IMG/VR virus record: IMGVR_UViG_3300032087_002866
Coordinates: 1-32,451 of that record
DNA length: 32,451 nt
Source: a virus
Reading direction: 5' to 3' (one strand)
In this document: piece after piece, positions 192-32,451 of the stretch
Layout: each line of letters begins with the position of its first letter
Position numbering within the stretch: position 1 is the first letter of the stretch
Notes under the pieces: generated by a model
Told to the model about the DNA's origin: nothing
What the model saw: only the letters and a program-made list of their open reading frames with translations
The model's database searches: none
Translations under genes and position numbers: made by a program

Positions 192-626
192 ATGGCTTGG
201 GCAACAAGTTCAAACGTAATAACAACAAACTTAGACGCAGGAACAGACTCACCAGCGGCCGCACGTCCAAACCTAAAAGCGGCTCTTGATGAATTAATAC
301 TTGTAATTGATGGCAGAAACACAGCAAACGGTGTAGCAGGCCTAAATGCAAGTTCAAAATTAGACGCAACACAGTTTCCAGATGAAATCAATTCAAGTTC
401 AGGAAATGCACTTACATTAGATCCAGACACGGGCAAGGTTAAGATCGAAGATGTAATCAATCTAAATCCACAAACCAAAGCGGCACTGAATGCAAGAACA
501 GACAAAGCCACAGGCGACGTTGCATACTGTTCAGATGGTGGAGATGATAGTGCAGGCGTAGGCTGTATTGCTGTTTTTGATGGCACAGATTGGCGTGCTG
601 TTCAATTAGCAGGAGTGTTGTCATAA
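192..626 (+). CDS. Short fibre/appendage-like virion protein
   Basis: A 144-residue protein with Shine-Dalgarno AAAGGAG about 7 bases before the ATG. Its first ~40 residues (MAW start, then a DAGTDSPAAARP segment and LKAALDELILVID) match the N-terminal module of the proteins at 12966 and 31449. All three are therefore probably attached to the particle through a common module. The middle contains LDPDTGKV, a typical beta-turn of phage fibres, and the C-terminus (YCSDGGDDSAGVGC, then FDGTDWRAV) resembles the end of collar or fibre proteins that describe a surface patch. It carries one DSAG motif at residue 119. It follows the long fibre gene that ends at 111 and is coupled to the next gene by TAATG. 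The virion role is inferred from module sharing. Confidence 0.7.
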   Translation: MAWATSSNVITTNLDAGTDSPAAARPNLKAALDELILVIDGRNTANGVAGLNASSKLDATQFPDEINSSSGNALTLDPDTGKVKIEDVINLNPQTKAALNARTDKATGDVAYCSDGGDDSAGVGCIAVFDGTDWRAVQLAGVLS

Positions 627-820
627 TGAAAGACATCAATGACGCATACGCAAGTTTAGACAAACGCATGGCTCTTTTAGAGCAAAGATTAGACATCATA
701 CAAAATAATCATTTGGCACACATACAAGCAGACATAGATGCTATCAAAAAGTATTTCTTATGGGGCGTGGGGGTTGTGTTCGTTCAATTGATTGCCGTTA
801 TTGCGGTTATGATGCAGTAA
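626..820 (+). CDS. Small coiled-coil plus membrane-anchor protein, XhlA/holin-like
   Basis: 64 residues. The start ATG overlaps the previous stop in TAATG, so I chose it over an upstream in-frame start inside the fibre-like gene. Residues 1-40 are a heptad-rich amphipathic helix (ASLDKRMALLEQRLDIIQ, then HIQADIDAIKKY). Residues 41-63 form one hydrophobic segment (FLWGVGVVFVQLIAVIAVMM). This layout, coiled coil followed by a C-terminal membrane helix in under 80 residues, is that of the XhlA family of phage lysis-associated proteins. It may assist holin function or anchor another component at the inner membrane. No endolysin is recognised nearby, so the lysis role is tentative. Confidence 0.6.
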   Translation: MKDINDAYASLDKRMALLEQRLDIIQNNHLAHIQADIDAIKKYFLWGVGVVFVQLIAVIAVMMQ

Positions 821-1035
821 TGCCCTATCTAAAACTAAAACCAGACACCTACATACTACAGAAACATCAAGTTTTCAAATTTGATACCTGCCAATTTTGT
901 GGCAGTAAAGCAGGGCACGACTTTCAACGTCTACAGAGTATGCAATTTGAAAGACAAGGTATAACCTGGAAAAGAACCTGCAAATCCTGTAGGAAAACCA
1001 CTGCCATTGTGAAAAAAGACGGTTTTATTGATTGA
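820..1035 (+). CDS. Small zinc-ribbon protein
   Basis: 71 residues, starting in a TAATG overlap with the previous stop. Two CxxC knuckles, C24-C27 (CQFC) and C54-C57 (CKSC), are spaced 26 residues apart as in a treble-clef or zinc-ribbon fold that binds one zinc. The rest is basic (KRTCKSCRKT, KKDG), which would fit nucleic-acid binding. Its 3' end overlaps the -35 box of the promoter at 1032. The gene is the last of the unit that begins at 192. Function is unknown; binding of DNA, RNA or RNA polymerase are the obvious possibilities. Confidence 0.65.
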   Translation: MPYLKLKPDTYILQKHQVFKFDTCQFCGSKAGHDFQRLQSMQFERQGITWKRTCKSCRKTTAIVKKDGFID

Positions 1036-1060
1036 CAAAACCACTTTTTTGCTGTATTAT
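1032..1060 (+). promoter_or_regulatory. Near-consensus sigma70 promoter, TTGACA-17-TATTAT
   Basis: The -35 box TTGACA (1032-1037) and -10 box TATTAT (1055-1060) are separated by exactly 17 bases. Transcription would begin near 1067 and read into the two small genes at 1100 and 1320. The -35 box lies across the stop codon of the zinc-ribbon gene. It is one of six promoters of this type, all confined to the first 4.8 kb. Confidence 0.75.
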
Positions 1061-1070
1061 AACGATATTA

Positions 1071-1078: not shown

Positions 1079-1099
1079 AAGTTATAAGGCAAACATAAA

Positions 1100-1538: not shown

Positions 1539-1892
1539 TATGACGGCTAATGACCCCACTCTGTTGTGATGTCGCTTAACAGGCACACAATGTATAGGGC
1601 CGCAGGTTGCTGTGTAAACAGTTGGAAGTTTCAATACATCCGTCTTCCGTAAAACCTTGTTATGTCGCGTGGTGAGACGCCAAGCGAGACGGCAGTAGTA
1701 GTGAGACGCTTTTTTTTGTGTCAGAAACTACTATTGCCGTCGTGTGACTTCAACGCCAAGTGTAAAAGACTTCGTCTTAAAAAATTGTGTTAAAAAGAAA
1801 TTGTGTTTGAGCGATAGCGAAAACAAGATGTCTGTAAGACATCTCTAAATGTAAACAAAAAGCCACGTAATAGACCTCTTTGTGATGATCTA
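1539..1892 (+). other. Gene-free interval with inverted repeats
   Basis: No open frame longer than about 40 codons with a credible start was found on either strand. GAGACG occurs three times between 1672 and 1709. Three inverted repeats are visible: the large hairpin 1688-1741 (separate entry), AAGAC-TTC-GTCTT at 1766-1778, and AGATGTC-TGTAA-GACATCT at 1826-1844. On the minus strand TTTACA-16-TATACA (about 1589-1616) is a weak promoter candidate. A replication origin, a non-coding RNA or a decayed gene could each account for it. Confidence 0.5.
1688..1741 (+). other. Long hairpin with T8 apical loop
   Basis: GACGGCAGTAGTAGT (1688-1702) pairs with ACTACTATTGCCGTC (1727-1741) over 15 positions, one of them a G-U in RNA. 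Inside it, GACGC (1705-1709) can pair with GTGTC (1718-1722), closing a loop of eight T residues. The T run is in the loop, not after the stem, so this is not a standard intrinsic terminator. Confidence 0.6.
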
Positions 1893-1900
1893 AATAAATA
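1893..1900 (+). promoter_or_regulatory. T4-late-like promoter box (AATAAATA)
   Basis: AATAAATA lies about 150 bases before the methyltransferase gene at 2050. Transcription from here would produce the structured leader described at 1901-2052. Confidence 0.4.
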
Positions 1901-2052
1901 CTTGTAAGCGAGCATGGGTCATTACACCACCTCCTGCGTGTTTGGTAAGGCTATCTTACGTGCAGTTCTTTCTATGTTTGTGGTGGACATCAATATAAAT
2001 GCCATTTTATATCCTATGTGACTCATGTTCGCCCACTTAAAGGATATAAATG
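1901..2052 (+). promoter_or_regulatory. Structured leader with a potential RBS-sequestering switch
   Basis: Three nested stems can form: CACCAC (1925-1930) with GTGGTG (1980-1985), then CTGC with GCAG, then GTAAG with CTTAC. Downstream, TTTATATCCT (2006-2015) is a perfect 10-base complement of AGGATATAAA (2041-2050), which holds the Shine-Dalgarno sequence and the first base of the start codon at 2050. The same segment can instead pair with ATATAAA (1993-1999). The two pairings exclude each other, as in the expression platform of a translational riboswitch or RNA thermometer. No known riboswitch class is recognised. Confidence 0.5.
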
Positions 2053-2655
2053 GACAACCACTACACAGATTGGCACAAGCAGTTTCCCAAGAGTGGCGTG
2101 GGCAAACAGTATCCTTTCCTACTTGAACAGATCACCCTCAACAGAAAAACACAAACACAACATCGTAATCTAACTGGCAGACCCCTCGCAGATAAGAAAA
2201 AATGGGAATGGCGTCGTGGCTTAGACTATGGCTGTGGCAAAGGTGGCACAATAGCGTGGCTTGAAGGCCTATGCCCATGGATCGCTATTGAAGGTTATGA
2301 CCCAGGCAATGAACAATTTAACACACTACCAGAAGGTGACTTTGACTTCTTATACACAGCAGACGTGCTTGAACACATAGATATACAAGACATACCCCAG
2401 ACTTTAGAGCATTGCGAAAGCATAAGCAAGATCAACATACATATAATAGACCTTACACCTGCTAAGAAGACGCTACCAGATGGCAGAAATGCACACATTA
2501 CACTACTGACCAAAGAAGCATGGATTGAACTGTTTGAACAGCATGAATATCGCGTAACACACATATCACAATACTCAACCCCTGATCCTAACTACACCAC
2601 GAGAGATAGACTATGCATAATAACCAAACACCCAACAATAGCACCCTTGTCATAA
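2050..2655 (+). CDS. Class I SAM-dependent methyltransferase
   Basis: 201 residues. The SAM-binding motif I is LDYGCGKGG at residues 58-66, the acidic residue after strand 2 is in GYDPG (D84), and FLYTADVLEHI at 100-110 is the motif IV/post-IV region typical of small-molecule or sugar methyltransferases. Shine-Dalgarno AAAGGA lies 6-11 bases before the ATG, inside the potential switch described for 1901-2052. The gene overlaps the following glycosyltransferase by 43 bases, which suggests the two act on the same glycan or surface structure. Substrate cannot be read; a DNA methyltransferase is unlikely because no DPPY-type motif is present. Confidence 0.85.
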   Translation: MDNHYTDWHKQFPKSGVGKQYPFLLEQITLNRKTQTQHRNLTGRPLADKKKWEWRRGLDYGCGKGGTIAWLEGLCPWIAIEGYDPGNEQFNTLPEGDFDFLYTADVLEHIDIQDIPQTLEHCESISKINIHIIDLTPAKKTLPDGRNAHITLLTKEAWIELFEQHEYRVTHISQYSTPDPNYTTRDRLCIITKHPTIAPLS

Positions 2656-3326
2656 CAGCACTTAATCAACGTCTATTAACGGCATATGGCTACCGATTCC
2701 TTGACACATTCCCCGAGACATTAGACTTGATGGTGTGGAGCGAAGATGAACTTGACATACCCCACCGAAGACTAAGCCACGCATTTGTTGAAAGAAACAA
2801 GCATAGACCTCAGCCAAGAAGTTATAAGCAAGATGCAATACGTTTTCATTGGAAACCTCAAGCAGTTTATCTAACATACAACACCGTAGATAGAAACAAA
2901 TATACGAGCATCCTTTGGATAGATGCAGACACACAGTTCCTCAAACAGATAGATCAAACATGGATTGACGAACACATAGCAACAGAACACATAATGAGTT
3001 ATATGGGCAGACCCGACTATTACAGTGAAACAGGCGTGCTATACTTTAATCTCAAGCACAAGCACACAGAACAATATATAAAAGACGTGTGGGAATACTA
3101 TGTTACAGGAGACATATGGGACTTACAAGAACAGCATGATAGTTATGTTTGGGACTATGTAAGACTTCGTCAAGAGCATGATAATAATAGAAAGTTTAGA
3201 AACTTAGGCGTAGATCATAAAGTGCCAGGAGGACATATACAAGCATACCTATATGGAGAATGGTTTGATCATGCTAAAGGACCACGCAAAAAGTCAGGAA
3301 AATCACCCGAAAATAAGCACAATTAG
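2613..3326 (+). CDS. GT-A-type glycosyltransferase with DxD motif
   Basis: 237 residues. After an N-terminal strand STLVITALNQ and helix LTAYGYRFLDTFP comes SILWIDADTQFL (residues 99-110), where D104-A-D106 is the metal-binding DxD of a GT-A fold. SETGVLYFNLKH (about 138-149) matches the acceptor-side region of the same fold. The tail (KGPRKKSGKSPENK) is very basic. The 43-base overlap with the methyltransferase gene implies coupled expression. It probably transfers a sugar from a nucleotide-sugar to a phage or cell-surface acceptor. The donor and acceptor are unknown. Confidence 0.75.
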   Translation: MHNNQTPNNSTLVITALNQRLLTAYGYRFLDTFPETLDLMVWSEDELDIPHRRLSHAFVERNKHRPQPRSYKQDAIRFHWKPQAVYLTYNTVDRNKYTSILWIDADTQFLKQIDQTWIDEHIATEHIMSYMGRPDYYSETGVLYFNLKHKHTEQYIKDVWEYYVTGDIWDLQEQHDSYVWDYVRLRQEHDNNRKFRNLGVDHKVPGGHIQAYLYGEWFDHAKGPRKKSGKSPENKHN

Positions 3327-3692: not shown

Positions 3693-3701
3693 TGTATCTA
3701 T

Positions 3702-4051: not shown

Positions 4052-4058
4052 GTTTTGG

Positions 4059-4834: not shown

Positions 4835-5647
4835 TTAAATTTCTTCAAAGAGTGTGTCATATGTGTTCGAGTATAAATTTGTGTGCCATTCACGAGGCAC
4901 AAAGAACAAGTCAATTTCTCTGCGTAGTGCCACGCCGTTGTGCAGTAGTGTTTGACGTTGATTTGTGAACTCTCCATCAAGCCAACCCTGTTTTTTTGAA
5001 CAGACTCTATAGTCTCGCTGTCGCATCCAGTCAATCATAGCCTGTGCAGTATAACCAAATTTTTGACTGAAAGCAGGATTTACTTCTGCCTGCACCAGTG
5101 GACGATTCTGTTGTAGTGTGTGTTCTGCACCCTGTAACACGTAGAGTTCATATCCTTCAACGTCTATTTTTACAAAATCCACCTCGTCAAAACCGTATGA
5201 GTCAAGTGTTTGCACGTTCACTGTGTGTCGCTGTTTTTCTGATCCTTTTGCACGTGGATTGTAGGGTGTGTGATCTATAAAATTATGTCCATTGCATTGA
5301 GGCACTACCATGATGTCTGCGGTGCCTGGTCTATCTCCAAGTGCTTCTTTGTATAGTGTGGTGTTGGTGACACCGTTGTCTCTTACTGTGTTGTGCCATA
5401 GTGTTTGTGTGGTTGGTGTTGGTTCCCAGCAGTGAACATGATCAAAACGTTCTGCATAGTGTATGGCATTCAGTGCATTGTTTGATCCAATGTCCAAACA
5501 CACACGCCACGTGGGTAGTATTTTCTGCACAAAGTCCCAATTGGTTGATTGATACTGTCCATACTGTAATCTATTCTTAAGGATGTTGTCACCCTCTTCA
5601 ACCCAGTATGTTTTTCCATTCTTTGAGTGTATTGCTTCGATATTCAT
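4835..5647 (-). CDS. FkbM-family SAM-dependent methyltransferase
   Basis: 270 residues on the minus strand. CLDIGSNNALNAIHYAERF is the SAM-binding motif I, and VHCWEPTPTT carries the acidic residue of motif II. DEVDFVKIDVEGYELYVLQG matches the FkbM signature (VDFxKIDVEGxExxVLxGA) closely. FkbM enzymes methylate hydroxyl groups of sugars or polyketides. A C-terminal extension of about 60 residues follows the core. Its ATG overlaps the stop of the upstream gene by one base (TAATG), so the two are coupled. In this glycosyltransferase-rich genome O-methylation of a phage-added or surface sugar is the most likely task. Confidence 0.85.
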   Translation of the reverse strand: MNIEAIHSKNGKTYWVEEGDNILKNRLQYGQYQSTNWDFVQKILPTWRVCLDIGSNNALNAIHYAERFDHVHCWEPTPTTQTLWHNTVRDNGVTNTTLYKEALGDRPGTADIMVVPQCNGHNFIDHTPYNPRAKGSEKQRHTVNVQTLDSYGFDEVDFVKIDVEGYELYVLQGAEHTLQQNRPLVQAEVNPAFSQKFGYTAQAMIDWMRQRDYRVCSKKQGWLDGEFTNQRQTLLHNGVALRREIDLFFVPREWHTNLYSNTYDTLFEEI

Positions 5648-6303: not shown

Positions 6304-6897
6304 ATGCGAATAGTAACAACAAGATGGGGAACCAAGTATTCAGCATTTGATGTTGAAAGGCTCTACAGCCAATGCCGTGCATGGTGTGACTTTGACAAAT
6401 TTGTGTGCATAACAGATCAACCAGAACAGTTACATCCTGAGATTGAACGAATTGACTTTCCATCAGTGCCCAAGTATACCACTTGGTGGAGCAAGATTAT
6501 TCAATTTTCACTGTTTACACAAGGGCAAAGTGTAAGCATGGACATTGACATACACATTAGAGATCGAGCAGAGTTTCAATTTAGCACAAATAAACTGTTG
6601 ATGCAGTTAGATCCACTTGCACAGTATCATCCACACAAAAACATCAAATATGTGAATTCAAGTGTTATCACATACCAAGGTGATTGGAGTTGGATCACAG
6701 AAAAATACAATGCAAGTTGGCAAGACATACAAGCACGTTATAGAGGTGACCAAGAATGGTTATGGGGTGATCACCAAGACCGTATTGCATATCACAAACC
6801 CATATTTGAATCATACAAATGGAGTGCAAAACAGCGAGGTTATTCTGTAATGCCTATTGTAAACTATCATGGCCAAGATGTAAAGGACAAAGCATGA
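6304..6897 (+). CDS. GT-A-like glycosyltransferase
   Basis: 197 residues starting at ATG 6304 after GGGGAG (6289-6294); an upstream in-frame start at 6244 would read through the promoter palindrome and was rejected. The N-terminus (MRIVTTRWGTKYSAFDVERL) is the first strand and loop of a nucleotide-sugar-binding fold, CRAWCDFDKFVCITDQ is the second, and SVSMDIDIHI holds the DxD metal site (D80, D82). The order matches small phage and capsule-locus glycosyltransferases. The gene overlaps the next in ATGA and leads an operon of at least ten coupled genes. Confidence 0.7.
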   Translation: MRIVTTRWGTKYSAFDVERLYSQCRAWCDFDKFVCITDQPEQLHPEIERIDFPSVPKYTTWWSKIIQFSLFTQGQSVSMDIDIHIRDRAEFQFSTNKLLMQLDPLAQYHPHKNIKYVNSSVITYQGDWSWITEKYNASWQDIQARYRGDQEWLWGDHQDRIAYHKPIFESYKWSAKQRGYSVMPIVNYHGQDVKDKA

Positions 6898-7796
6898 CAG
6901 ACGCACTAAGAACACATGGTTGGGGATACTTTCCTATAGATCCAAAATATAAGGGCGAAGACTTTCGCAAAGGTGTAACACCTTTGTTCTACAAAGACCG
7001 GTTTGATTTTACAAAAAGTTATGTTCTTGTAGGTGTAGAAACTAATCGTATGTTTCAACCTGGATCAGAGCCTAAGGAGTTAGACTTCTTTCATTGGGAT
7101 AATTCAATGCAACCTTGGTTAAGACACATAACACCTGCAAATGGATCAGGACACAAACTATGGAGTAGACTAACCTATCGTGGTTGGTGTATGCCCAAGG
7201 ATTCACCTGCACTTGAAACACATAGACAAAGAATAAACAAACGCCTTAGAGAAGATTCACAAGGTAAAATAAGAGACATTGCAGAACTATGGGGAGGCAA
7301 CCGTCCTACTCGAGTGCCTGTTCGCAAACACGCATTAGTTTGTCCCTCATCTCATCGAAACCATCAACATTTTTTCAAGCAATCACAGGAACAATGGTTG
7401 ACTATGGTAAAAAGAGGATTACGTGAACAAGGATACACCTATTCAATAAGACAAAAAGTAGGTGTCAATGCAAGAAAAACAAATCAAACAACTGATCAAC
7501 TAAAACGTGAAGACTGTGATCTATTGGTTGCAAATTATAGTGCCTGTGCCTCAGAAGCAGTGGTGTTAGGTTATCCTATTGTAACAACAACTGATCAGAA
7601 TCCAGCAAGAGCAGTATCAACACCTTGGGAAGATTTTTGTCAAGGCACAATAAAAGAATACACAGCAGAACAAATAGATCATTGGACTACAAGAATATGT
7701 GCATACACTTGGCATAGACATGACCTTGATCGTTTGGCATGGATTGATACACATCCACAAGCAGAACATTTAAGGAAAGCAAGATATGAGTCATAG
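6894..7796 (+). CDS. GT-B-like glycosyl- or glycerophosphotransferase
   Basis: 300 residues; the ATG at 6894 overlaps the previous stop in ATGA. The first half has a VLVGVETNR strand and WSRLTYRGWCMPKDSPALET. The second half begins at VCPSSHRNHQHFF (149-161) and contains DLLVANYSACASEAVVLGYPIV (209-230 region), the pattern in which GT-B enzymes bind the nucleotide-sugar: a strand, a serine-rich turn and an EA...G.P step. CDP-glycerol glycerophosphotransferases and capsule enzymes share it. Catalytic residues cannot be assigned with certainty. It follows a GT-A protein and precedes a methyltransferase, consistent with stepwise glycan building. Confidence 0.6.
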   Translation: MTDALRTHGWGYFPIDPKYKGEDFRKGVTPLFYKDRFDFTKSYVLVGVETNRMFQPGSEPKELDFFHWDNSMQPWLRHITPANGSGHKLWSRLTYRGWCMPKDSPALETHRQRINKRLREDSQGKIRDIAELWGGNRPTRVPVRKHALVCPSSHRNHQHFFKQSQEQWLTMVKRGLREQGYTYSIRQKVGVNARKTNQTTDQLKREDCDLLVANYSACASEAVVLGYPIVTTTDQNPARAVSTPWEDFCQGTIKEYTAEQIDHWTTRICAYTWHRHDLDRLAWIDTHPQAEHLRKARYES

Positions 7797-8268
7797 AAAA
7801 ACCGCATTAGAAAAATTTATACGAGAACACAACCTGTTGCGTGGTGCAGAAATAGGTGTGTGGCAAGGAGAAACATCAGAACATTTATTAAGAAACACAG
7901 ATTGTTTTTTATATCTTGTGGACCTATGGAGTGCAAGTCCTAAGTATGAAACTTGGGATCATGATGCAAATAAAAAACGTGCAACAGACAGAATTAAAGA
8001 TTTACAAAATTACAAAATACTACAAGGTGTAAGTTGGCAAGTAGCAGAACAAATACAAGACAATGAATTAGATTTTGTTTTCATAGATGGCGACCATTCA
8101 ACTGAAGGTGTTGTAAGTGATATACAAGCATACACGCCAAAAGTAAAAACAGGTGGTTACATTATGGGACATGATTGGGATTGGACTACTGTTCAAACAG
8201 CAGTAAGACAGTTCTGTGAACCACAAACACTAACAAATGGTATTTGGTATTACAAAAAGGAGAACTAA
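7786..8268 (+). CDS. Class I methyltransferase, Methyltransf_24/macrocin-type
   Basis: 160 residues overlapping the previous gene by 11 bases. RGAEIGVWQGETSEHLL (19-35) is motif I; FLYLVDLWSASP holds the acidic motif II; DFVFIDGDHSTEGVVSDI (96-113) is the metal-associated motif of Methyltransf_24 and TylF-like enzymes; GGYIMGHDW (123-131) follows on the next strand. These enzymes methylate sugar hydroxyls and often need Mg2+. The family length is about 180-220, so this is a compact form. Substrate is probably the sugar handled by the neighbouring transferases. Confidence 0.8.
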   Translation: MSHRKTALEKFIREHNLLRGAEIGVWQGETSEHLLRNTDCFLYLVDLWSASPKYETWDHDANKKRATDRIKDLQNYKILQGVSWQVAEQIQDNELDFVFIDGDHSTEGVVSDIQAYTPKVKTGGYIMGHDWDWTTVQTAVRQFCEPQTLTNGIWYYKKEN

Positions 8269-9638: not shown

Positions 9639-9792
9639 ATACTTGGTGCCAACATCAACTGTTGTTGGTTCTATATTATTAATTGCACACCTTACAGGCA
9701 CTATTAGTGGTTGGTGGGCAATCCTATATGTGCCATTGTTGTTTATGGGACACAGCATTGAATATAAGAGTATGTTACTATGGCCCAAATAG
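9613..9792 (+). CDS. Small two-helix membrane protein, holin candidate
   Basis: 59 residues, ATG 9613, stop TAG 9790-9792, Shine-Dalgarno GGAG (9602-9605) 7 bases upstream. After a basic N-terminus (MKLPERNDRYLVP) come two hydrophobic segments, TVVGSILLIAHLTGTISGWW and AILYVPLLFMG, with a short polar tail. It overlaps the coiled-coil gene before it by 26 bases and the gene after it by 13 bases, typical of tightly packed real genes. The size and two membrane helices fit a small class II holin, but other membrane roles are possible. Confidence 0.6.
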   Translation: MKLPERNDRYLVPTSTVVGSILLIAHLTGTISGWWAILYVPLLFMGHSIEYKSMLLWPK

Positions 9793-10316
9793 CAATCGTT
9801 GGCAACGGACCTGCAAGAGAACTGTATGATGATTTTGACGGCACAATCATCGCCTGCAATATTCCGCAGATTAAAAAATATGATTACATAGCAATGGTAG
9901 ATAGAAAAGCCTTGGACTATGTAATACACAACAAACTAACATTCAAAAAACCTATCCTCATACCTACAGAATTAAAAGGTAGAGCACAAGAATATCAAGA
10001 CACAAAAATTATCACAACATTTCAAAATAAATTAATGAATTGTGCGGCAACCGCCGCTTTCCATTTTGCACAAGAATATGATACAATATGGTTATACGGT
10101 TGCAACGCATTATGGAGTGAAGAAACAAAAAGTTCACAAGACGAATTCATTCCAAGACCCTATAGAGCAAACAATTTGCATTTACAGTGGAGAGAAAGGT
10201 GGAAACAGGTGTGGCAAACAGGCAAGCATTTTGTTATTGTTCATCCGCATGGAGTTACACCACAAGATTATGGCGAAAATGTTCAATGGTATAGTGTTAC
10301 GCGAGCAAATCCTTAA
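9780..10316 (+). CDS. Protein with N-terminal GNGP nucleotide-binding-like motif (MptE/GT29-like)
   Basis: 178 residues. It opens with AQIAIVGNGPARELYDDFDG, a strand-turn-helix with GNGP seen in MptE-like (DUF115) proteins and in bacterial glycosyltransferases related to sialyltransferases. TIIACNIPQIKKYDYIAMVD follows as the second alpha-beta unit. A helical middle (MNCAATAAFHFAQEYDTIWL) precedes YGCNALWSEE. The order fits a small Rossmann-like enzyme acting on a nucleotide-linked substrate. Its position in the glycan operon favours a transferase, but the class is uncertain. It overlaps the next gene by 38 bases. Confidence 0.5.
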   Translation: MAQIAIVGNGPARELYDDFDGTIIACNIPQIKKYDYIAMVDRKALDYVIHNKLTFKKPILIPTELKGRAQEYQDTKIITTFQNKLMNCAATAAFHFAQEYDTIWLYGCNALWSEETKSSQDEFIPRPYRANNLHLQWRERWKQVWQTGKHFVIVHPHGVTPQDYGENVQWYSVTRANP

Positions 10317-10761: not shown

Positions 10762-11580
10762 ATGACAATCACACTAAGACAAGAGTCCGATGCAAGAGCA
10801 ACCACGAAAGGTTCTGCCTTAACATTCGCAGAATTAGATAACAACTTCAAAGACGTTTTAAACAGGGCAACTCTTGTAGTAGAAGACTCATCTAACACAC
10901 AAGCAACATTAGGTAATGATGGTGCCAAAACAGCAGAATTAAAATTTGCAGGTGCTGGCGGATTAACCACAGCAGTAACAACAGATTCAACAGGACAAGT
11001 AATCCTAACACTTACACAAGCGGCCTCATCAGGTGGCATTTCAGAAGTAGTAGGTGGAACCAACATAACAGTTTCAAGTCCAGACTCAGCAGGAGCAGTA
11101 ACTATTGATGCAGATGTTCCTGTTACAGATATTGTAGCAGGTGATTCAAATATCAGCATTAGTAATGCAGATGATTCAGCAGGTGCATATTCTATTTCAC
11201 TTGCAGGCTCATTATCAAATCTTGTTTTAAATCAACCAACCTTTAAAGGATTCGCAGAAAACATTCAAACAATTACAGCAGATTCAACTGGTGCAATAAA
11301 CATTGATGTAGCAGATGGAAATGTTTGCGAAATTACTTTAACAGACAACGTGACATTTACAGGTTTCACAAACGCAACAAACGGACAAAGTGCTACACTG
11401 ATTCTTAAACAAGATACAAACGGAAACAGAACATTTACAGAAAGTTTAGATTCTGCTCAGTCGATGGTTTTTGCTGGGGGCACAAGCACACTTTCAACAA
11501 CAAGTAATGCAATAGATATAATGACTATTGTGTATGTTGGGGGCATTTATTACGCAAGTTTGTCAACAAACTTTAGTTAA
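10762..11580 (+). CDS. Virion appendage/fibre protein with TFAELDNNF motif
   Basis: 272 residues with Shine-Dalgarno AAAGGAG. The N-terminus MTITLRQESDARATTKGSAL followed by TFAELDNNF is a recognisable module at the start of structural proteins of marine T4-like and other phages. The rest is threonine-, serine- and glycine-rich beta sequence: GGTNITVSSPDSAGAVTIDA, then TFTGFTNATNGQSATLILKQ near the C-terminus, as in fibre tips. It carries two DSAG and two DSTG motifs. It is first in the fibre cluster after the late-type box at 10720. Confidence 0.75.
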   Translation: MTITLRQESDARATTKGSALTFAELDNNFKDVLNRATLVVEDSSNTQATLGNDGAKTAELKFAGAGGLTTAVTTDSTGQVILTLTQAASSGGISEVVGGTNITVSSPDSAGAVTIDADVPVTDIVAGDSNISISNADDSAGAYSISLAGSLSNLVLNQPTFKGFAENIQTITADSTGAINIDVADGNVCEITLTDNVTFTGFTNATNGQSATLILKQDTNGNRTFTESLDSAQSMVFAGGTSTLSTTSNAIDIMTIVYVGGIYYASLSTNFS

Positions 11581-12805: not shown

Positions 12806-12966
12806 TGAAAACAATAAGATTTACATTCAATGACGACTCAACACTTGAATTAGATTTTCCTAACAGTCAATCTGATAGTGATATTAGAACACAATTAGAC
12901 AAAGAATTAGAACTTGGTTATCACAGTCAAACAAGTGATCAAACCTATACATTGGAGGAAATTTAA
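12805..12966 (+). CDS. 53-residue acidic protein between two fibre genes
   Basis: It starts in TAATG with the previous stop and ends in TAATG with the next start. It reads MKTIRFTFNDDSTLELDFPN followed by an acidic helix (SDSDIRTQLDKELELGYHSQ). The N-terminal strand pair and the exact one-base overlaps on both sides support it as a real gene. A chaperone or small fibre subunit is possible. Ribosome re-initiation at each TAATG would keep its production tied to its neighbours. Confidence 0.65.
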   Translation: MKTIRFTFNDDSTLELDFPNSQSDSDIRTQLDKELELGYHSQTSDQTYTLEEI

Positions 12967-14174
12967 TGGCTTGGCCTAAAAACACAAAAGCATCAACAGC
13001 CAATGTAGACGCTGGCACTGATTTAATCTCTAATGCAAGAGGTGACATCAAACAAAACATTGACAATGTAAATGATATTATTGATACATTTGACATTGGT
13101 GGTGATAGTGCTGGACAAATTGCAGACGGCGATATTCTACAATACAGTTCAAGTGCAAATGCATTCCAACCTACTGGCAGTGATGGCATAGGTGGTAGCA
13201 ATCAAATGCTAATACCTTTTACTGGTTGGGTTGTAAACAACTGGAGTGGTGTTACAACAGGTTTTAGAGCAGGTGATAGTGCAAACGCAAAACACAGTTT
13301 TGATAGAATGGCACTTTTAGGTGGTGCTTATTACAGAAGAAATTCACAACATTCAGGAGACCTTGATCTTACTGCTTCTGAAGGCACAGTTTTCAACAGC
13401 ATAAGTGGAGCAAGTGTAACCACAGCAACACCTTCATTGGTTAAACCAACAGGTTATTCAACTACAGGAACCAATGTAAACATTTCTATTACAAATGGTG
13501 TTGCATCCAATAGTCTAAGCGTGTTCGCAACACTTAACGGAGGTGGGTCAAATGATAAAATAGATTCTATCTTAGGAGGCACAGTCAACGTAATGTATGG
13601 TGAAGGTTATGAAAGTTACATAACACTTCCAGCAGGTAATTATTTCTTAAAAATGTTTGGTCGTTATGATGCAGAATACACTGATAGTGTAAACCACATT
13701 AGACAAACACCAGGCACAGTAAGTGTTTTAGAACAGCAATGTGAAGACTTTATACAGAGTGTTAGTGAAACTGACAGTGATGTGTTCATTTATAACAAAA
13801 CAGATGACACGTTTATAACTGATCCTATTTTTGATCCTAACAATCAAGGTTATGTGACTAATACATTTACAGAATTAGATCAAATAACAACAGGTTCACA
13901 AGGCCAAAGATTTACATTGACAGGCACAAAACAAATTATGATATGGACACCTGCAAACAAAACTTTCAATAATACACCATTTGGTGATGCAACTTCACCA
14001 GATACAAATCATGATTTCTTAGGCTTTAGGCTCGCCCAATCAACAACAATGTCTGGTGATAGCACAGGCACTGGAACAAATTACGCATTTAGTAAAAGCA
14101 ATGTAGGCATACCAGCAAGGTATGGTTGGGTCACAAGGGTGCCTAACACTTGGATATCTATCACCAAATACTAA
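12966..14174 (+). CDS. Tail fibre/appendage protein with shared N-terminal module
   Basis: 402 residues, TAATG-coupled with GGAGG upstream. The N-terminal module (MAWPKNTKASTANVDAGTDL, then ARGDIKQNIDNVNDIID) is shared with the proteins at 192 and 31449. It is followed by DGDILQYSSSANAFQPTG, a repeat unit common in phage fibres. The central part is glycine- and serine-rich beta structure, and the C-terminal 100 residues (GQRFTLTGTKQIMIWTPANK and beyond) may form a globular tip. It has one DSAG and one DSTG. No transcription terminator is obvious after it; the next unit has its own late-type box at 14206. Confidence 0.75.
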   Translation: MAWPKNTKASTANVDAGTDLISNARGDIKQNIDNVNDIIDTFDIGGDSAGQIADGDILQYSSSANAFQPTGSDGIGGSNQMLIPFTGWVVNNWSGVTTGFRAGDSANAKHSFDRMALLGGAYYRRNSQHSGDLDLTASEGTVFNSISGASVTTATPSLVKPTGYSTTGTNVNISITNGVASNSLSVFATLNGGGSNDKIDSILGGTVNVMYGEGYESYITLPAGNYFLKMFGRYDAEYTDSVNHIRQTPGTVSVLEQQCEDFIQSVSETDSDVFIYNKTDDTFITDPIFDPNNQGYVTNTFTELDQITTGSQGQRFTLTGTKQIMIWTPANKTFNNTPFGDATSPDTNHDFLGFRLAQSTTMSGDSTGTGTNYAFSKSNVGIPARYGWVTRVPNTWISITKY

Positions 14175-14252: not shown

Positions 14253-14696
14253 ATGTCAGCGGCATCAAACTACGTTGAGGATAGAACTTTAGACTTTTGG
14301 CTTAAAGCAAATTCTCAAACAACGTCTGCTCCTGCAACTGTTTATGTAGCACTTTTCACAAGTGCTGATTCGGCAGGCGGAACAGCAGAAAATTTAGAAG
14401 CAGGTATTCTAACAAACGAAGTAACAACGTCAGGCACAGCCTACGCAAGACAGGCAGTAACATTTGGAACTATTTCAAATGGTTCAGTAAGTAATTCAGG
14501 TAACATAACATTTCCAACAGCAACAGCAACCTACGGCACAGTAACACACGTGGCGGTTATGGATGCTAATTCAACTGATGATTCAGCAGGTGCAGGTAAT
14601 GTTCTTTATTATGGTGCATTAACAACTGCTCGTGAAATTTTAACTGACGATACTTTTCAGATTACAACAGGCAACTTGACTATTTCTTTGGCATAA
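14253..14696 (+). CDS. Virion protein resembling mycobacteriophage Gp80-type tail/fibre proteins
   Basis: 147 residues with AAGGAG upstream. The layout SNYVEDRTLDFWLKAN, VYVALFTSAD, AYARQAVTFGTIS, HVAVMDAN, VLYYGALTTAREILTDDTFQ, NLTISLA matches the pattern of small phage proteins (YxxxLLD, YVALFTxxP, YxRxxVTF, and a final NLTISL strand) annotated as tail-fibre or head-decoration proteins. It has two DSAG motifs, both in loops between strands. The gene starts the third late unit. Confidence 0.7.
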   Translation: MSAASNYVEDRTLDFWLKANSQTTSAPATVYVALFTSADSAGGTAENLEAGILTNEVTTSGTAYARQAVTFGTISNGSVSNSGNITFPTATATYGTVTHVAVMDANSTDDSAGAGNVLYYGALTTAREILTDDTFQITTGNLTISLA

Positions 14697-20567: not shown

Positions 20568-21419
20568 ATGGCGAATGAATTTGATACAGGTGTAAGCGGA
20601 GCAGATGCTCTTTACGCCAACATTATGCAGTCTGCTTTATTCAACTTGAATGAGCAGTCTATTATAAGACCACTCGTAAGAAATTACGATATGACAGGAA
20701 CTCCAGGCTTAACTGCACAGGTTCCAATTTACCCAACAGTAAGTGCGGCAGGTGTTGCAGATGGAACAGATCTATCTAATACTGCTTTCGCAACTACTAA
20801 GAAAGAAATCACTGCTTCAGAAGTAGGTGTAATGGTAACATTAACTGACCTATTAGAAGAAGCATCTAACGATGACACAGCGGCGGCTGTTGGACGTCAA
20901 TTAGGTGCGGCAATGGCTGAGAAAGTTGACACTGACTTAGCAGGCTTGTTCAGCGGTTTCTCAAACACAGTAGGTGCGGCTAACACTGAACTTACAGTAG
21001 ACGACTTCTTCAAAGCGGCGGCTACATTAAGAAACAACAAGGCTCCTGGCCCATATGTTGCAGTAATTCACCCATACCAAGCATTCCAACTTAAAAAGTT
21101 ACTTGCTGGTAATGGCAATACTCCAATGAACAACCACGATCTTGCTAACGAGGCTCTAAGAACTGGCTACGTTGGTCAAATCGCTGGTATCCAGATCTTT
21201 GAATCAACTGTTGTAACAGGTGCTGATTCGGCTGGAACATTTGTTGGTGCGGCAATGAGTTCAGACGCTCTTGGCTACATGGTTAAGAGAACTATGAGAA
21301 TTGAAACACAAAGAGATGCTTCTTTAAGAGCAACAGAAATTGTTGGTTCAATGGCTTATGGTATTTCAGAACTATTTGATGCATATGGCGTTGGTATCAT
21401 TGGTGACGCACAATTATAA
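20568..21419 (+). CDS. Major capsid protein, HK97 fold
   Basis: 283 residues with AAGGAG upstream. The sequence has an N-arm, PIYPTVSAAGVADGTDLSNT leading to the E-loop region, a long helix (EEASNDDTAAAVGRQLGAAM), and the P- and A-domain pattern APGPYVAVIHPYQAFQLKKL and GIQIFESTVV with GAAMSSDALGYMVKR. This order is that of short HK97-like coat proteins. A DSAG motif at residue 220 falls in the loop between two A-domain strands, expected to be exposed. The following terminator ends this unit. Confidence 0.9.
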   Translation: MANEFDTGVSGADALYANIMQSALFNLNEQSIIRPLVRNYDMTGTPGLTAQVPIYPTVSAAGVADGTDLSNTAFATTKKEITASEVGVMVTLTDLLEEASNDDTAAAVGRQLGAAMAEKVDTDLAGLFSGFSNTVGAANTELTVDDFFKAAATLRNNKAPGPYVAVIHPYQAFQLKKLLAGNGNTPMNNHDLANEALRTGYVGQIAGIQIFESTVVTGADSAGTFVGAAMSSDALGYMVKRTMRIETQRDASLRATEIVGSMAYGISELFDAYGVGIIGDAQL

Positions 21420-22850: not shown

Positions 22851-23261
22851 ATGGCTACATTTACTGGAGAAAACGGAAAAGTAGAAATCACTGCTGAAGA
22901 TTCAGCGGGAACTACTACCGTTGCTGAAGTTCGTTCATGGACAGTAGAACATACGAAAGATGTTATTGAAGATACTGTAATGGGCGACGCGGCAAGAACA
23001 TACAAAAACGGTCTGCATCAGTTTACTGGTTCAATGGAAGTAATCTATGAATCAGGACATACTGCGGCGACTAACGCATTTGATCCGGCACAAGATGGTG
23101 CATTAACTGTTGAATTCCACACTGGTGAAACTTCACCAGCACAGAAATTCTCAGGTTCTGTCCTTGTAACTTCTGTTTCAAGAACAGCATCATTTGATGA
23201 TTTGATCACTGCAACTGTGAACTTCCAAGGATCTGGTGCATTAACTATTGCATCTGTGTAA
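22851..23261 (+). CDS. Major tail tube protein
   Basis: 136 residues with AAGGAG upstream. GKVEITAEDSAGTTTVAEVR, SWTVEHTKDVIEDTVMGDAA, the LHQFTGSMEVIYE strand and the closing VLVTSVSRTASFDDLITATV are the features of tube proteins of siphophages (gpV/TTP family). It assembles into hexameric rings along the tape measure. The DSAG at D17 lies in the loop between the first two strands, at the outer surface in related tubes. Confidence 0.85.
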   Translation: MATFTGENGKVEITAEDSAGTTTVAEVRSWTVEHTKDVIEDTVMGDAARTYKNGLHQFTGSMEVIYESGHTAATNAFDPAQDGALTVEFHTGETSPAQKFSGSVLVTSVSRTASFDDLITATVNFQGSGALTIASV

Positions 23262-28089: not shown

Positions 28090-30602
28090 TGGGCGGATCA
28101 AATCCAATTAAAAAAATTGTCAAAGGCATTGGTAAAATCATCAAAGGTATCACCAAAATTGTAAAAGGTGTTATTGGTTTTATTGGCGATGTTGTAGGCT
28201 TTCTTGTTAATCCATTTGGCACATTTGATATGCCAAGTGCACCACAACAAGCAGATGCGGCCGCACAAGGTGTTACAGTTACAAAAAACGGAACCAATAT
28301 TGCACTACCTGTTGTATATGGTTATAGACGTGTAGGTGGTGCTCTTATACACGCAGAAACAGGTTCTACAAACAATCAATACCTATGGTGTGTGTTTGCT
28401 GTTGCAGAAGGTGAAATACAAGGTTTCAAAAGAATCTATGTAGACGACACAGCATTACCTTTGCCTAATAATTTCTATACACATGGAGAACAGGTAAACG
28501 TAACATCAGGCAAATACAAAGACAGAATTAGACTACAGGTGTTTAATGGTTCACCAGGTCAAGGACAAAGTGGTTTAGCAAATGGCTCACCAAGTTGGGG
28601 CAAGAAAAATAGAAAACTACCAGATGTTGCTTATGTGGTAATGCGTTTCTATTGGAAAGAAATTAAAACACAAGCAGATCAGGACAATAATCCATTTAGT
28701 GGTGGCATACCGCAAGTTAAGTTTGACATTTGTGGTAAGAAAGTTTATGACGTTAGAAAACACTCAGCAGGAACACCATTAATCAGTTACACAGGACAAC
28801 CTAAAAATTACAGTTTCAATCCTGCTTCTTGTTTGTTAGATTATATGATGAATCCACGTTATGGTGCTGGTTTAACATATGATCAAATCGATGGAGACAG
28901 TTTTAGAACAGCGGCTCTTAAATTTGAACAGCAGGTAACATACAACAGCACCTATAATGGTAGAGCATTGACTATGAATGCTGTTGTTGATACTAATCAA
29001 AAAGTATTAGACAACATGAAGATCTTACTTGCAGGTTGTAGAAGTTTAATGCCATATTCACAAGGCAAATACAAAATAAAAGTAGAAGATGGTGGTAATG
29101 ACACTGATATCACATCAACAACAATTAATGTTGCTATGGACATTGACAAAGACAAAGTCATTGGTGGTATCACTATGGACGGTGAACGTAAGAAAACAAA
29201 ATACAACCAAGTGGTAGTAAACTATGTTGATCCTGACAGAGAATTTACAAACCAACAGCAGATCTATCAAGTTAGCAGTGATAAAACAACTGACAACGAT
29301 GAAGAACTAAAAGGCGAATTTACATTCCACACAATTACAAATCCTGCTATTGCTTATGAATTTGCACGTATGATCTATTTGAAATCAAGGGTGCAAAGAA
29401 CAATAGGGTTTGCTGGCACACAGGAATTATTAAACTTAGAAGTAGGTGATATCATTCGTGTGACAGATAGTGTTCTAAATCTAAGTGCTGTGACATTTAG
29501 GGTAATTGGTATTCAATTAAATCCAGACATGACTGTTAGCATCAATGCTTCAGAACATGATGCAACACTCTATCCTGCAACAGGTGGTGTTGGACAGGTA
29601 GAAATACCACCACAAATATTCACACCTGATCCTATTGCAATTAGACCAAGACAAAGAAAAACTACGTTAGCACCAATTGGCATACTACCGCCAAACGATC
29701 CTGATGTGCCTGTAGATAGTGCAGGAACACCAATTGTTGATAGTGCTGGTATACCAATTGTTGATAGTGCAGGTGAAACAACACCAGGTGATCCACCAGA
29801 AGTAAATCCATTACCAGAAGAACCGGAAGAAATTTTTGGCACAGCAATTGAAGATTTCCAAACATTTGAAACTTTGGATCCATTACCAAATGATATTGAA
29901 ATAAATCCATTAAGAATACAATTGGTTGATCCAACTTTTGAAGGTGATGTAATATATTGGGACAGAGCACCAGGCAGTCGTTATGTATCTTTTTCAGGCA
30001 ATAGTGGCTTTTGCCAAGTGCCATCAATCAACAGATTTACAGGCAACAGAGGTATTCCAGGCAGTAATGACACAGATACTGTAAATGGTATAACCTATCT
30101 ATACAATGACACAAGAAGTTTTGGCGGCGATTTCCATTTTACTGCCAACACAAGAGCATTGGCAAGTGGTGCACAGAATGTTGCATTGGTATTATTGATT
30201 AACTTGCCACAGGATACAAGCATAAACGAATTTGAATATACACTATATCATGCAGATGGTATAGAATACACCAAACGTGTTGAACTAACACAAAGCATGA
30301 ATTATTGGCAATTTAATTCAAGCGAAGGTTTGGGTAGAGTTACTGGTGCAAGACAGATAAAATTTTATTGGATCAAAAAAACTGCAGATGGTGAAATAAA
30401 ATGTCCTGATGCAAGTCAATTAGGAAATAGCAGTTATTTTGATTATAATGACACACAAACAAACAAAAACGGAACTAATATTGAAGCATATCTAAACTTT
30501 TATATGCAGAATAACTCTTCATTACCATTCCCTGCAAGTTTATCACCAATATCACCTGCAGGTGGAGATGATAAATTTACGTTCCACGACTTAGGAGCAT
30601 AA
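28089..30602 (+). CDS. Central tail tip/host-specificity protein, J-like
   Basis: 837 residues, TAATG-coupled. It opens with an amphipathic basic-hydrophobic stretch (NPIKKIVKGIGKIIKGITKI, then VKGVIGFIGDVVGFLVNPFG), usual for tail hub proteins. VVYGYRRVGGALIHAETGST, RIYVDDTALPL, ARMIYLKSRVQRTIGFAGTQ and LNLEVGDIIRVTDSVLNLSA are conserved features of the gpJ/phage-tail family. From about residue 543 a linker carries three DSAG motifs in tandem octapeptides (DSAGTPIV, DSAGIPIV, DSAGETTP). The C-terminal 230 residues form a separate beta-rich carbohydrate-binding-like domain. Confidence 0.85.
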   Translation: MGGSNPIKKIVKGIGKIIKGITKIVKGVIGFIGDVVGFLVNPFGTFDMPSAPQQADAAAQGVTVTKNGTNIALPVVYGYRRVGGALIHAETGSTNNQYLWCVFAVAEGEIQGFKRIYVDDTALPLPNNFYTHGEQVNVTSGKYKDRIRLQVFNGSPGQGQSGLANGSPSWGKKNRKLPDVAYVVMRFYWKEIKTQADQDNNPFSGGIPQVKFDICGKKVYDVRKHSAGTPLISYTGQPKNYSFNPASCLLDYMMNPRYGAGLTYDQIDGDSFRTAALKFEQQVTYNSTYNGRALTMNAVVDTNQKVLDNMKILLAGCRSLMPYSQGKYKIKVEDGGNDTDITSTTINVAMDIDKDKVIGGITMDGERKKTKYNQVVVNYVDPDREFTNQQQIYQVSSDKTTDNDEELKGEFTFHTITNPAIAYEFARMIYLKSRVQRTIGFAGTQELLNLEVGDIIRVTDSVLNLSAVTFRVIGIQLNPDMTVSINASEHDATLYPATGGVGQVEIPPQIFTPDPIAIRPRQRKTTLAPIGILPPNDPDVPVDSAGTPIVDSAGIPIVDSAGETTPGDPPEVNPLPEEPEEIFGTAIEDFQTFETLDPLPNDIEINPLRIQLVDPTFEGDVIYWDRAPGSRYVSFSGNSGFCQVPSINRFTGNRGIPGSNDTDTVNGITYLYNDTRSFGGDFHFTANTRALASGAQNVALVLLINLPQDTSINEFEYTLYHADGIEYTKRVELTQSMNYWQFNSSEGLGRVTGARQIKFYWIKKTADGEIKCPDASQLGNSSYFDYNDTQTNKNGTNIEAYLNFYMQNNSSLPFPASLSPISPAGGDDKFTFHDLGA
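29715..29774 (+). repeat. 24-bp tandem repeat coding three DSAG octapeptides
   Basis: GATAGTGC(A/T)GG begins at 29715, 29739 and 29763, exactly 24 bases apart, each followed by related codons (ACACCAATTGTT, ATACCAATTGTT, GAAACAACACCA). The repeat sits in the linker of the J-like protein and could expand or contract by slippage. Confidence 0.8.
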
Positions 30603-30603
30603 G

Positions 30604-31446
30604 ATGCCAGGTAACGGAATATACACAGGAGGCATTTACCGACCCACAAGCATAGAAACATGGGACGGTGATAGTGCTGGTTACCAATGGGATGATCTAA
30701 CCAATTGGAATCAGACACCTTTGTTGCCACTAACATTTACAACTGCTATTGTAGATGGTGGTAGAATAGACAAATGGTTACCTCTTACCAACATAACTGC
30801 AACTGGTCGTGTAACAACTACAATACAATATGGCAACACAGTAGACAGCACAGGTGGTGCAATTGATTCACCGTCAAGTGTTACATATAATCCTGGTGAT
30901 AGTGTTACACCAATCAAAGCAAGATATTTTAAATTTACATTTAGTCTTGATTACAATGATAGTGCAGGTGCAGAAGAAACACCTACGCTTTCAAGTGTAA
31001 CAACAAACTTAAATGCAGAAAAAGTAATGGCAACATTTGATTCAATTGATTCAAGCACCCTAAGTGGTTCTGCAGGTCTAAGGACATTGGTTGTTGATCA
31101 ACCTATTTCACCTACAGTAGTTACTATTCAACCACACCTACCATCAAGTGTTTTAGATAGTGCTGGTGCAAGTGATTTAGCCTCAAGTTTTGTCACTGAT
31201 GGTTATGTTGCAGAAGGTTATGTTGACACAGACTTTGTAATAGATGCATCAAGTGGTGGTGGCAGTGGTGGATCTACAAGCAGACCGGTTGTCTACATTG
31301 ACAAGAGCGGTGCAAACATTGTGTTAAATATATTTGAATTTGATACATTTGGTAAAACAAAATTAGTTGATTGCACATTTGACGCAATCATACAAGGACT
31401 ACCTAATGCAAATGTAATTGCAAACGGTAGTATCGCAAGGAGTTAG
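30604..31446 (+). CDS. Tail fibre/receptor-binding candidate
   Basis: 280 residues beginning 2 bases after the previous stop. It has an N-terminal GNGIYTGGIYRPTSIETWDG, a long beta-rich middle with two strand-loop units (VTTTIQYGNTVDSTGG, ARYFKFTFSLDYNDSAGAEE), then a DGYVAEGYVDTDFVID segment similar to the start of the protein at 14721, and a glycine-serine linker before a C-terminal domain. Three DSAG and one DSTG are present. It is located directly after the J-like gene, as expected for a fibre bound to the tail tip. Confidence 0.7.
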   Translation: MPGNGIYTGGIYRPTSIETWDGDSAGYQWDDLTNWNQTPLLPLTFTTAIVDGGRIDKWLPLTNITATGRVTTTIQYGNTVDSTGGAIDSPSSVTYNPGDSVTPIKARYFKFTFSLDYNDSAGAEETPTLSSVTTNLNAEKVMATFDSIDSSTLSGSAGLRTLVVDQPISPTVVTIQPHLPSSVLDSAGASDLASSFVTDGYVAEGYVDTDFVIDASSGGGSGGSTSRPVVYIDKSGANIVLNIFEFDTFGKTKLVDCTFDAIIQGLPNANVIANGSIARS

Positions 31447-31448
31447 AT

Positions 31449-32451
31449 ATGGTATGGCCAACAGGTAAACCTTTAACATCAGCATTTGACAGTGACGACG
31501 ATCCAATATCAACTGCAAGACCAGAACTACAAACAATGGCTACAACTGTAGGTTCAATGGTAGATGCAATTGATACAAGTGGTATTACAGACGGACAAAT
31601 TTTAATTTATAACGCATCACAAAGCAAATTTATTGCTGGTGCGGCTTCAAGTGGTTCAGGAAACGTAACTGCATCAACAGGAGACAATATTGCAATTTAC
31701 AGTGGTGATAGTGCAGGAGGTTTAAGTTCAACTGTAGAAGGTTCACCAAGCAGAGAATTAACTTATGATCCTGCTATTGCAGGTATGAGAGCAGGAGGAT
31801 ATGCAGGTATTTCAGGCCAAGTTGGCGTAATGTATAGTGGTGACGGTATCGGTGGTGCAAAATTACAAATTAATCTAAATTCAACTTCACCAGACGTTTC
31901 ACCTCATTGTGATTTTCTTACAGTTAATCCTCTAACAGGCTCTGTTGCAAAAATTACAACACCTAACACATCAACAAGTTTAGAATTAAGCACTGGCAAG
32001 AATACAAACAGTGGCGAAATACAAATTAATCCAGGTGTTACAGGAGACATAAATGTTTACAGTCGAAAAAACATTGAATTAAATCCAACAGGTTCTACAA
32101 GTTCAACTGGTTATGTAAACGTCAGTGGTAAACTTTCTGGCACAAGTAGTTCTGCAGGTTATACTAATACTTTTGTTATAAGTGCAGAAAATCTTACAGA
32201 TGGTAAGGTAAGAATTTACAACGACAGAAGTGAAACTGGTGCAATGCTTGAAGTAGGACAAGCAGACATTATCCTTAAACCAGGTCCAAATGATAGTGCA
32301 GGTCTTGGAGGAGATAGTGCAGGTAATGGGTATATTGATTTTCAAACTTTAACAACAACTTCAATTGGCACAAATGGTGGTGCAGATGCAACTACTACAA
32401 ATCCAGTTGGATATATAGAAGTAAAAGTAAACGGACAAGAATACATTATGC
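31449..32451 (+). CDS. Tail fibre protein with shared N-terminal module (5' part; ends at 111 across the junction)
   Basis: The first 334 residues of a 340-residue protein; the frame continues at position 1 and stops at 111. The start (ATG 31449) follows AAGGAG by 7 bases. The N-terminal module MVWPTGKPLTSAFDSDDDPI, with ARPELQTMATTVGSMVDAID, matches those at 192 and 12966. DGQILIYNASQSKFIAGAA is the fibre repeat also seen in 12966. Serine-, threonine- and glycine-rich beta repeats follow, as in trimeric fibre shafts (SGEIQINPGVTGDINVYSRK). It has three DSAG motifs, two of them ten bases apart near the C-terminus (NDSAGLGGDSAGNG). Confidence 0.8.
   Translation, partial: MVWPTGKPLTSAFDSDDDPISTARPELQTMATTVGSMVDAIDTSGITDGQILIYNASQSKFIAGAASSGSGNVTASTGDNIAIYSGDSAGGLSSTVEGSPSRELTYDPAIAGMRAGGYAGISGQVGVMYSGDGIGGAKLQINLNSTSPDVSPHCDFLTVNPLTGSVAKITTPNTSTSLELSTGKNTNSGEIQINPGVTGDINVYSRKNIELNPTGSTSSTGYVNVSGKLSGTSSSAGYTNTFVISAENLTDGKVRIYNDRSETGAMLEVGQADIILKPGPNDSAGLGGDSAGNGYIDFQTLTTTSIGTNGGADATTTNPVGYIEVKVNGQEYIM
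32361..32451. repeat. Right copy of 91-bp terminal direct repeat
   Basis: Exactly equal to 1-91 (see the left copy). It marks closure of the circle, so 32,360 bp are unique. Confidence 0.9.

Follow-up and report, generated by a model that had tools for sequence, protein, structure and literature searches.

The viral genome considered here is the near-complete IMG/VR record IMGVR_UViG_3300032087_002866, analysed over its whole length of 32,451 bases (the window), and the element in question is the tetrapeptide DSAG, which recurs in its predicted structural proteins. A six-frame scan found 17 copies of DSAG and four of the similar word DSTG, all on the plus strand and all within nine genes (Table 1), and neither word in the other frames or on the opposite strand; gene by gene, these numbers are exactly those given in a preliminary description of this DNA. 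The 17 DSAG serines are encoded by AGT (11), TCA (4) and TCG (2), as that description also had it. The nearest named relative of the window is phage DSL-LC06 (OR003941), a circular genome of 29,811 bases with eight DSAG in six proteins, whose authors predicted a host among Pseudomonadota (PMC10611076). The sole match in a bacterial genome, obtained with the capsid, is a phage-like contig (L271, NZEU01000001.1) binned in a metagenome-assembled genome (MAG) of Porticoccaceae (MED754), which weakly hints at a marine gammaproteobacterial host.

Among the nine carriers, the identities of the capsid, tail tube and central fibre J proteins are backed by PHROGs, and the protein at 14253-14696 matches the Pfam family PF23140 (Gp80, 7.8e-27). 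The other five, which start at 192, 10762, 12966, 30604 and 31449, resemble fibre or tail proteins in their position and composition; matches were limited to two of them, a weak tail-type match for 10762 and one to a family without known function for 31449. The predicted enzymes, terminase, portal, scaffold and tape measure of the window have no DSAG in the six-frame scan, which confirms the earlier claim.

Such recurrence is far beyond expectation. The composition of the 9,831 predicted residues in window proteins gives 0.25 expected copies of DSAG and 2,000 within-protein shuffles averaged 0.30 copies with no more than 4 in any, both in keeping with the previous estimate of fewer than one; the Poisson probability of at least 17 copies at 0.301 is 3e-24, or 5e-19 when multiplied by 160,000 words. 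DSAG is the top tetrapeptide of the window, with 17 copies in nine proteins; among words without overlap with it, the leading one has five copies. In the J-like protein the three copies follow one another at intervals of 24 nucleotides (nt), in a short repeat spanning 29715-29774 that is a local duplication, and are therefore not independent events, so that about 15 of the 17 copies are independent. This repeat is the one point in favour of chance, composition or a spreading DNA repeat as the source of DSAG, an explanation that is ruled out by the shuffles, by the permutation control and by the diversity of codons described below, and whose probability is practically negligible.

The same pattern extends to the relatives of the window. 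More than 200 related contigs were collected by capsid, terminase and J queries, and words were counted clade-wide in 1,317 non-redundant proteins. DSAG occurs 237 times in twelve outer-virion families against 4.2 expected, with up to four copies per protein, whereas the core families (terminase, portal, scaffold, tape measure, head completion and related proteins) contain 3 against 3.3 expected and the enzyme-like families contain none. An equal frequency in the non-virion proteins of related phages, which the preliminary description had named as evidence against its proposal, was thus not observed. All three core copies belong to one family, p14721, for which 1.0 is expected in 19,008 residues. 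This fast-evolving repeat protein (14721-15887 in the window), rich in Ser, Thr and Ala (LSATA/TSTATL), has almost no DSAG despite its composition and provides an internal control. In addition, a scan independent of homology, which covered 2.9 million viral contigs of IMG/VR and asked for a pair of DSAG-encoding stretches no more than 30 nt apart, returned 43 contigs; strong enrichment over multiple proteins was seen in ten, all ten from the DSAG clade, and the one other contig with several DSAG (L146) is dominated by low-complexity repeats. Some members of the clade (G018, at 13142-13861, G044, G047, G049 and G051) have an optional gene, inserted between those of the small and large terminase, for a protein of 236-250 residues that might be an additional head protein, and DSAG is present in most copies of this protein.

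Alignments place DSAG at 50 separate sites in the 12 families, and words other than shifted DSAG occupy 14-19 sites (19 for DSSG and 16 for DSTG). This repeated gain at non-homologous sites of unrelated proteins is what marks a short linear motif, and it shows that DSAG has been gained independently many times. Positions do vary among homologues (buried and variable positions had been listed beforehand as evidence against the proposal), but they vary in the form of repeated gain in variable loops. Because 47 different 12-mers code for DSAG across the clade, and because at 15 sites some homologues use AGY and others TCN codons for the serine, selection acts on the peptide and not on a DNA word, and the earlier suggestion to this effect is strongly supported.

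All four positions of the word are needed. DSA without a following G occurs 52 times against 43 expected; DSI, DSL, DSV and DTV are near expectation, DTA is found 70 times against 60 expected, DTL is below expectation, and other permutations of D, S, A and G that do not overlap DSAG occur 0-15 times. In the outer proteins of the clade there is no enrichment of DSGG, NSAG or DTAG (3 against 5.4 expected), and the turn words NPDG, DSDG, DPAG and DSNG are at or below expectation; DSTG (34 against 5.1 expected) and DSSG (29 against 4.0) are mildly enriched. The flanks have no consensus beyond a mild preference for P at -1 and G at +1.

Where DSAG sits in its proteins was approached with predicted structures. 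The preliminary description had placed the capsid and tube copies in loops likely to be exposed, and the loop placement stands in models of low confidence: capsid residues 220-223 form a loop between two strands (predicted local distance difference test [pLDDT] 52; about 50-80 in the A-domain part), and tube residues 17-20 form the tip of the first hairpin (pLDDT 71; below 50 at residues 15-19). Structural matches of the capsid model are HK97-type capsids with middling scores, those of the tube model include tail tube proteins, and loop length is variable among homologues at both sites. The capsid model is too poor to prove exposure and the tube model only locates the motif at a hairpin tip; exposure of both sites on the outside of the virion is likely only.

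These locations raise the question of whether DSAG is simply the preferred beta-turn of this lineage (type I with a G1 bulge, DxxG), with no reader at all. The predicted hairpin tip and capsid loop are where such a turn would be placed, DSAG substitutes other DxxG turns in tube homologues, and the mild enrichment of DSTG and DSSG points the same way. However, the four turn words named above are not favoured in the outer proteins, the core proteins have no excess of DSAG, and the copies in J lie in a Pro-rich linker. The history of the word is a further difficulty. In the capsid tree the DSAG clade is monophyletic (98/97), with other phages and the pelagiphages falling outside, and syntenic non-clade phages with homologous virion proteins (capsids about 35-42% identical) have no DSAG where 2.1 would be expected, the corresponding families amounting to 56,029 residues. 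The pelagiphages HTVC111P and HTVC026P have none, and no comparable recurrent word was found in more distant phages, the best being SSGT (13 sites, low complexity). Many of the DSAG-free relatives (L320, L321, L326, L334, L349 and other non-clade contigs) have two tandem tube-like genes rather than one.

Within the clade the word has also been lost. A DSAG-poor subclade (G012, G007, G028 and many fragments) is nested within DSAG-rich lineages of the capsid tree, and DSAG is present in 1 of 8 surface families in G012, 1 of 6 in G007 and none of 4 in G028, compared with 8 of 10 in the supported sister lineage G015. In this subclade the capsid site reads ASAG and the tube loop AAGT, ASGS or ASDS; a substitute tetrapeptide was looked for there and none was found. 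A single DSAG is retained in nearly all members, in the distal-tail protein p27050 (G012, G007, G043, L275-L277, L282-L284, L286 and L288-L290; LQIIGTDSAGGVAAIN in the members read), and looks as if it were under a separate need. DSAG has thus been lost in a coordinated manner from unrelated proteins. Joint loss of this kind is hard to attribute to individual folding needs and points to one reader for all sites, and a preferred turn without a reader is quite unlikely.

The reader might belong to the host. A host enzyme with DSAG specificity could modify the serines, with the clade tracking hosts that have such an enzyme, and the joint loss in a subclade that retains the phage candidate enzymes described below could reflect a change of host. 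Nevertheless, this explanation leaves the conserved sugar-enzyme cluster of the clade unaccounted for, the host evidence consists of the prediction for DSL-LC06 (Pseudomonadota, PMC10611076) and one Porticoccaceae MAG capsid match, and we consider it very unlikely.

The region from 2.0 to 10.7 kb, roughly one quarter of the genome, encodes Pfam-supported methyltransferases, a cupin and putative transferases that match no curated family (Table 1). Two of the latter, at 9780 and 6819, are candidate writers of a modification. The 9780 family was detected with a hidden Markov model in 18 of the 19 clade records, and the remaining one is a contig that begins past the locus. Another 22 records, made up of 17 from outside the clade and 5 short clade fragments, gave no match; the distribution of the 6819 family is similar. 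Among 50,697 named phage records both families were found only in DSL-LC06, which also has a GT9 protein above the Pfam cut-off, and none of the transferase and methyltransferase families of the clade occurs in 10 long contigs of syntenic non-clade phages. A scan of IMG/VR with the 6819 protein found no relative, the single-sequence patterns being overly specific. The enzyme set thus co-distributes with DSAG at the level of one clade.

Table 1. Sites of DSAG and DSTG in the window with the proteins that carry them, followed by candidate modification genes.
Feature	Position	Strand	Remark
DSAG, small fibre-like protein 192-626	546..557	+	Ser AGT; clade sites in p192 family
DSTG, protein 10762-11580	10984..10995	+	six-frame scan
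DSAG, protein 10762-11580	11083..11094	+	Ser TCA; site has DSAG 4 times among 6 relatives
DSAG, protein 10762-11580	11173..11184	+	Ser TCA
DSTG, protein 10762-11580	11281..11292	+	six-frame scan
DSAG, protein 12966-14174	13104..13115	+	Ser AGT
DSTG, protein 12966-14174	14058..14069	+	six-frame scan
DSAG, gp80-like fibre protein 14253-14696	14367..14378	+	Ser TCG
DSAG, gp80-like fibre protein 14253-14696	14580..14591	+	Ser TCA
DSAG, major capsid protein 20568-21419, residues 220-223 (loop of predicted HK97 A-domain)	21225..21236	+	Ser TCG; DSAG here in 52 of 80 relatives
DSAG, tail tube protein 22851-23261, residues 17-20	22899..22910	+	Ser TCA; DSAG here in 36 of 62 relatives
Three DSAG (29715, 29739, 29763), Pro-rich linker of J-like central fibre 28089-30602	29715..29774	+	
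DSAG, protein 30604-31446	30670..30681	+	six-frame scan
DSTG, protein 30604-31446	30844..30855	+	six-frame scan
DSAG, protein 30604-31446	30958..30969	+	six-frame scan and relatives
DSAG, protein 30604-31446	31156..31167	+	six-frame scan
DSAG, fibre-like protein 31449-32451 (continues past window end)	31707..31718	+	six-frame scan
DSAG, protein 31449-32451	32292..32303	+	six-frame scan
DSAG, protein 31449-32451	32313..32324	+	six-frame scan
Methyltransferase (Methyltransf_23)	2050..2655	+	Pfam
Putative GT-A-like transferase, WIDADT motif	2613..3326	+	homologues in clade and phage Mosig
FkbM methyltransferase	4835..5647	-	PF05050 1.8e-17; TIGR01444 1.8e-24
Putative glycosyltransferase	6304..6897	+	DSL-LC06 homologue so annotated; no Pfam match
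Candidate writer B, conserved putative transferase	6819..7796	+	DSL-LC06 homologue annotated capsule KpsC-like; weak PF20471 in one member
Methyltransferase (Methyltransf_24)	7786..8268	+	Pfam; weak RMNT_CmcI match (rhamnosyl/sugar O-methyltransferase)
Candidate writer A, small conserved protein, GNGPS-type motif	9780..10316	+	DSL-LC06 homologue annotated sialyltransferase by depositors

The non-structural coding space of the window and of DSL-LC06 is mostly methyltransferases, putative transferases and HNH-like proteins, and no DNA polymerase, primase or helicase is annotated in the window (1-32451) or in the complete circular DSL-LC06 (L089, 1-29811). At the place of the 2050/2613 pair, G045 (670-2292) and G046 (1816-3441) encode a 540-residue protein resembling glutamine-dependent asparagine synthetase, beside a GT9-like gene. 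Within the tail operon of the window, ahead of J, lies the gene of a GNAT acetyltransferase (27613-28089), and near the equivalent position the pelagiphages HTVC111P and HTVC026P have an annotated toxin-activating lysine acyltransferase (HlyC-like; L090 21239-21646). The acetyltransferase was rejected as the writer because G016 and G049 lack it although they have 12 and 11 DSAG.

We propose, with an even chance of being right, that DSAG is an acceptor motif read in trans, most likely for O-glycosylation of virion serines by phage enzymes; phrased more widely, the best reading is a sequon for virion O-glycosylation or another modification of serine. The preliminary description had offered a modification sequon, a common attachment or maturation tag, and an extreme preference for one beta-turn. 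The first remains the best of these in view of the restriction to outer proteins, the many sites, the lack of a flank consensus, the coordinated loss and the co-distributed genes, and the last is disfavoured. Within a trans-acting scheme, a modifying enzyme is the best reader because of the many copies per protein, the variable loop positions, the use of Ser and not Thr, and the retained sugar-type gene set. DSAG, and weakly D-S-T/S-G, would be a self-contained acceptor motif in exposed loops of outer virion proteins, recognised after translation in the host cytoplasm by a trans-acting phage factor. The likely writer would be a phage-encoded sugar transferase that moves an activated sugar onto Ser as an O-link, and further transferases and methyltransferases of the genome may extend and methylate the glycan. 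Virions assembled from such proteins would carry glycans on the head, tube, hub and fibres alike, and this coat might plausibly serve in adhesion or as a shield.

The enrichment data suit any trans-acting reader equally, and the reader might also be non-catalytic. DSAG could be a docking tag bound by a phage or host protein (a decoration protein, a lectin-like coat or a host surface), of which each outer protein carries at least one, and capsid, tube, hub and fibres do all bear the word. Against this, the multiple copies per protein and their variable positions fit modification at many sites better, the clade-specific conserved non-structural genes resemble enzymes, and for docking to the host the copies on capsid and tube would be unneeded. 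Docking is rather unlikely.

The glycosylation proposal has its own difficulties. The division between outer and core families was made in part after the locations of DSAG were known. The co-distribution of enzymes and DSAG is suggestive only, because it is a single phylogenetic contrast that any shared clade gene would show. The DSAG-poor subclade retains both candidate writer families, 9780 and 6819, together with its one DSAG. These two families were not confirmed as transferases by searches of Pfam, NCBIfam and the Protein Data Bank (PDB), and the 9780 family matched neither the Maf_flag10 and CST-I models of Pfam nor solved sialyltransferases among PDB sequences. Fifty-six unrelated phage contigs with distant 9780 homologues (21-31% identity) have no DSAG enrichment, and horizontal transfer of this family therefore gave no independent support. 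Finally, phage Mosig has the 2613 transferase and no DSAG in 45,444 residues. The full form of the proposal, in which the clade encodes a cytoplasmic, sequence-specific O-glycosylation system with D-S-A-G as its sequon, some 50 acceptor sites and sugar-coated virion surfaces, is put forward as possible rather than probable.

Should DSAG be an O-glycosylation sequon, it would to our knowledge be the first known from a phage; the literature searched yielded no paper that deals with DSAG in phages. A four-residue tag would then mark the modified surfaces of a tailed phage, and, for a clade of uncultured aquatic phages, sequence alone would suffice to predict glycosylation sites over the whole virion. 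Virion glycosylation, which is known from a few mycobacteriophages, could then be put to direct test in another lineage unrelated to them. Because most bacterial O-glycosylation proceeds without a sequon, protein engineering would also gain a useful tool in an O-sequon that is compact and context-free and has its writer in the cytoplasm. Even if the reader is a binding protein, the convergent gain of one word at 50 sites distributed over a dozen virion proteins would be an uncommon signature, for which other phages can be screened.

Among known systems, the capsid of chlorovirus PBCV-1 is glycosylated by viral enzymes on Asn at an atypical sequon. The DSAG phages would resemble it in using virus-encoded machinery to glycosylate the capsid at an unusual sequence context, whereas PBCV-1 glycosylation is N-linked, takes place in a eukaryotic host and concerns chiefly one capsid protein. 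We know of no tetrapeptide sequon for virion glycosylation in the mycobacteriophages Che8 and Rita, and the DSAG phages differ in repeating one word in a dozen outer proteins, hub and fibres included. The capsids of Che8 and Rita carry glycans (PMC11256854), and their virions are glycosylated by phage-encoded glycosyltransferases; the proposed DSAG system would work alike, with the sequon as the new element.

Flagellin glycosylation by Maf and FlmG offers another parallel, namely direct cytoplasmic transfer to Ser or Thr in surface-exposed loops of a secreted structure. The core of Maf transferases resembles sialyltransferases, and no conserved sequon is known for their substrates (PMC11339370). 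The 9780 protein may share this resemblance, judging by its GNGPS-type motif and the depositors' annotation in DSL-LC06, but the Maf substrates lack a known sequon and the 9780 family lacks a Pfam match to Maf or CST-I. A likeness in sequence exists with the general protein O-glycosylation sequon of Bacteroidota, D-(S/T)-(A/I/L/V/M/T) (PMC12871550, PMC8550257), in which Asp also stands just before the modified Ser and a small residue follows, so that DSA and DST fall within the Bacteroidota motif. Unlike that motif, DSAG needs Gly at +2, and acceptor Thr and I, L, V or M at +1 are not enriched here; these residue preferences (DSA without G, DSI, DSL, DSV and DTA not enriched) rule out the Bacteroidota sequon itself. 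The Bacteroidota system also uses lipid-linked glycans and has its site of action in the periplasm, on noncytoplasmic proteins, whereas the virion proteins of phages are synthesised in the cytoplasm and the host of DSL-LC06 is predicted to be among Pseudomonadota (PMC10611076). Bacterial O-glycosylation generally works without a sequon, with Bacteroidota the sole exception named in a 2025 review (PMC12871550), and, if the proposal is right, DSAG would bring the number of sequence-defined O-glycosylation sequons in bacteria and their viruses to two.

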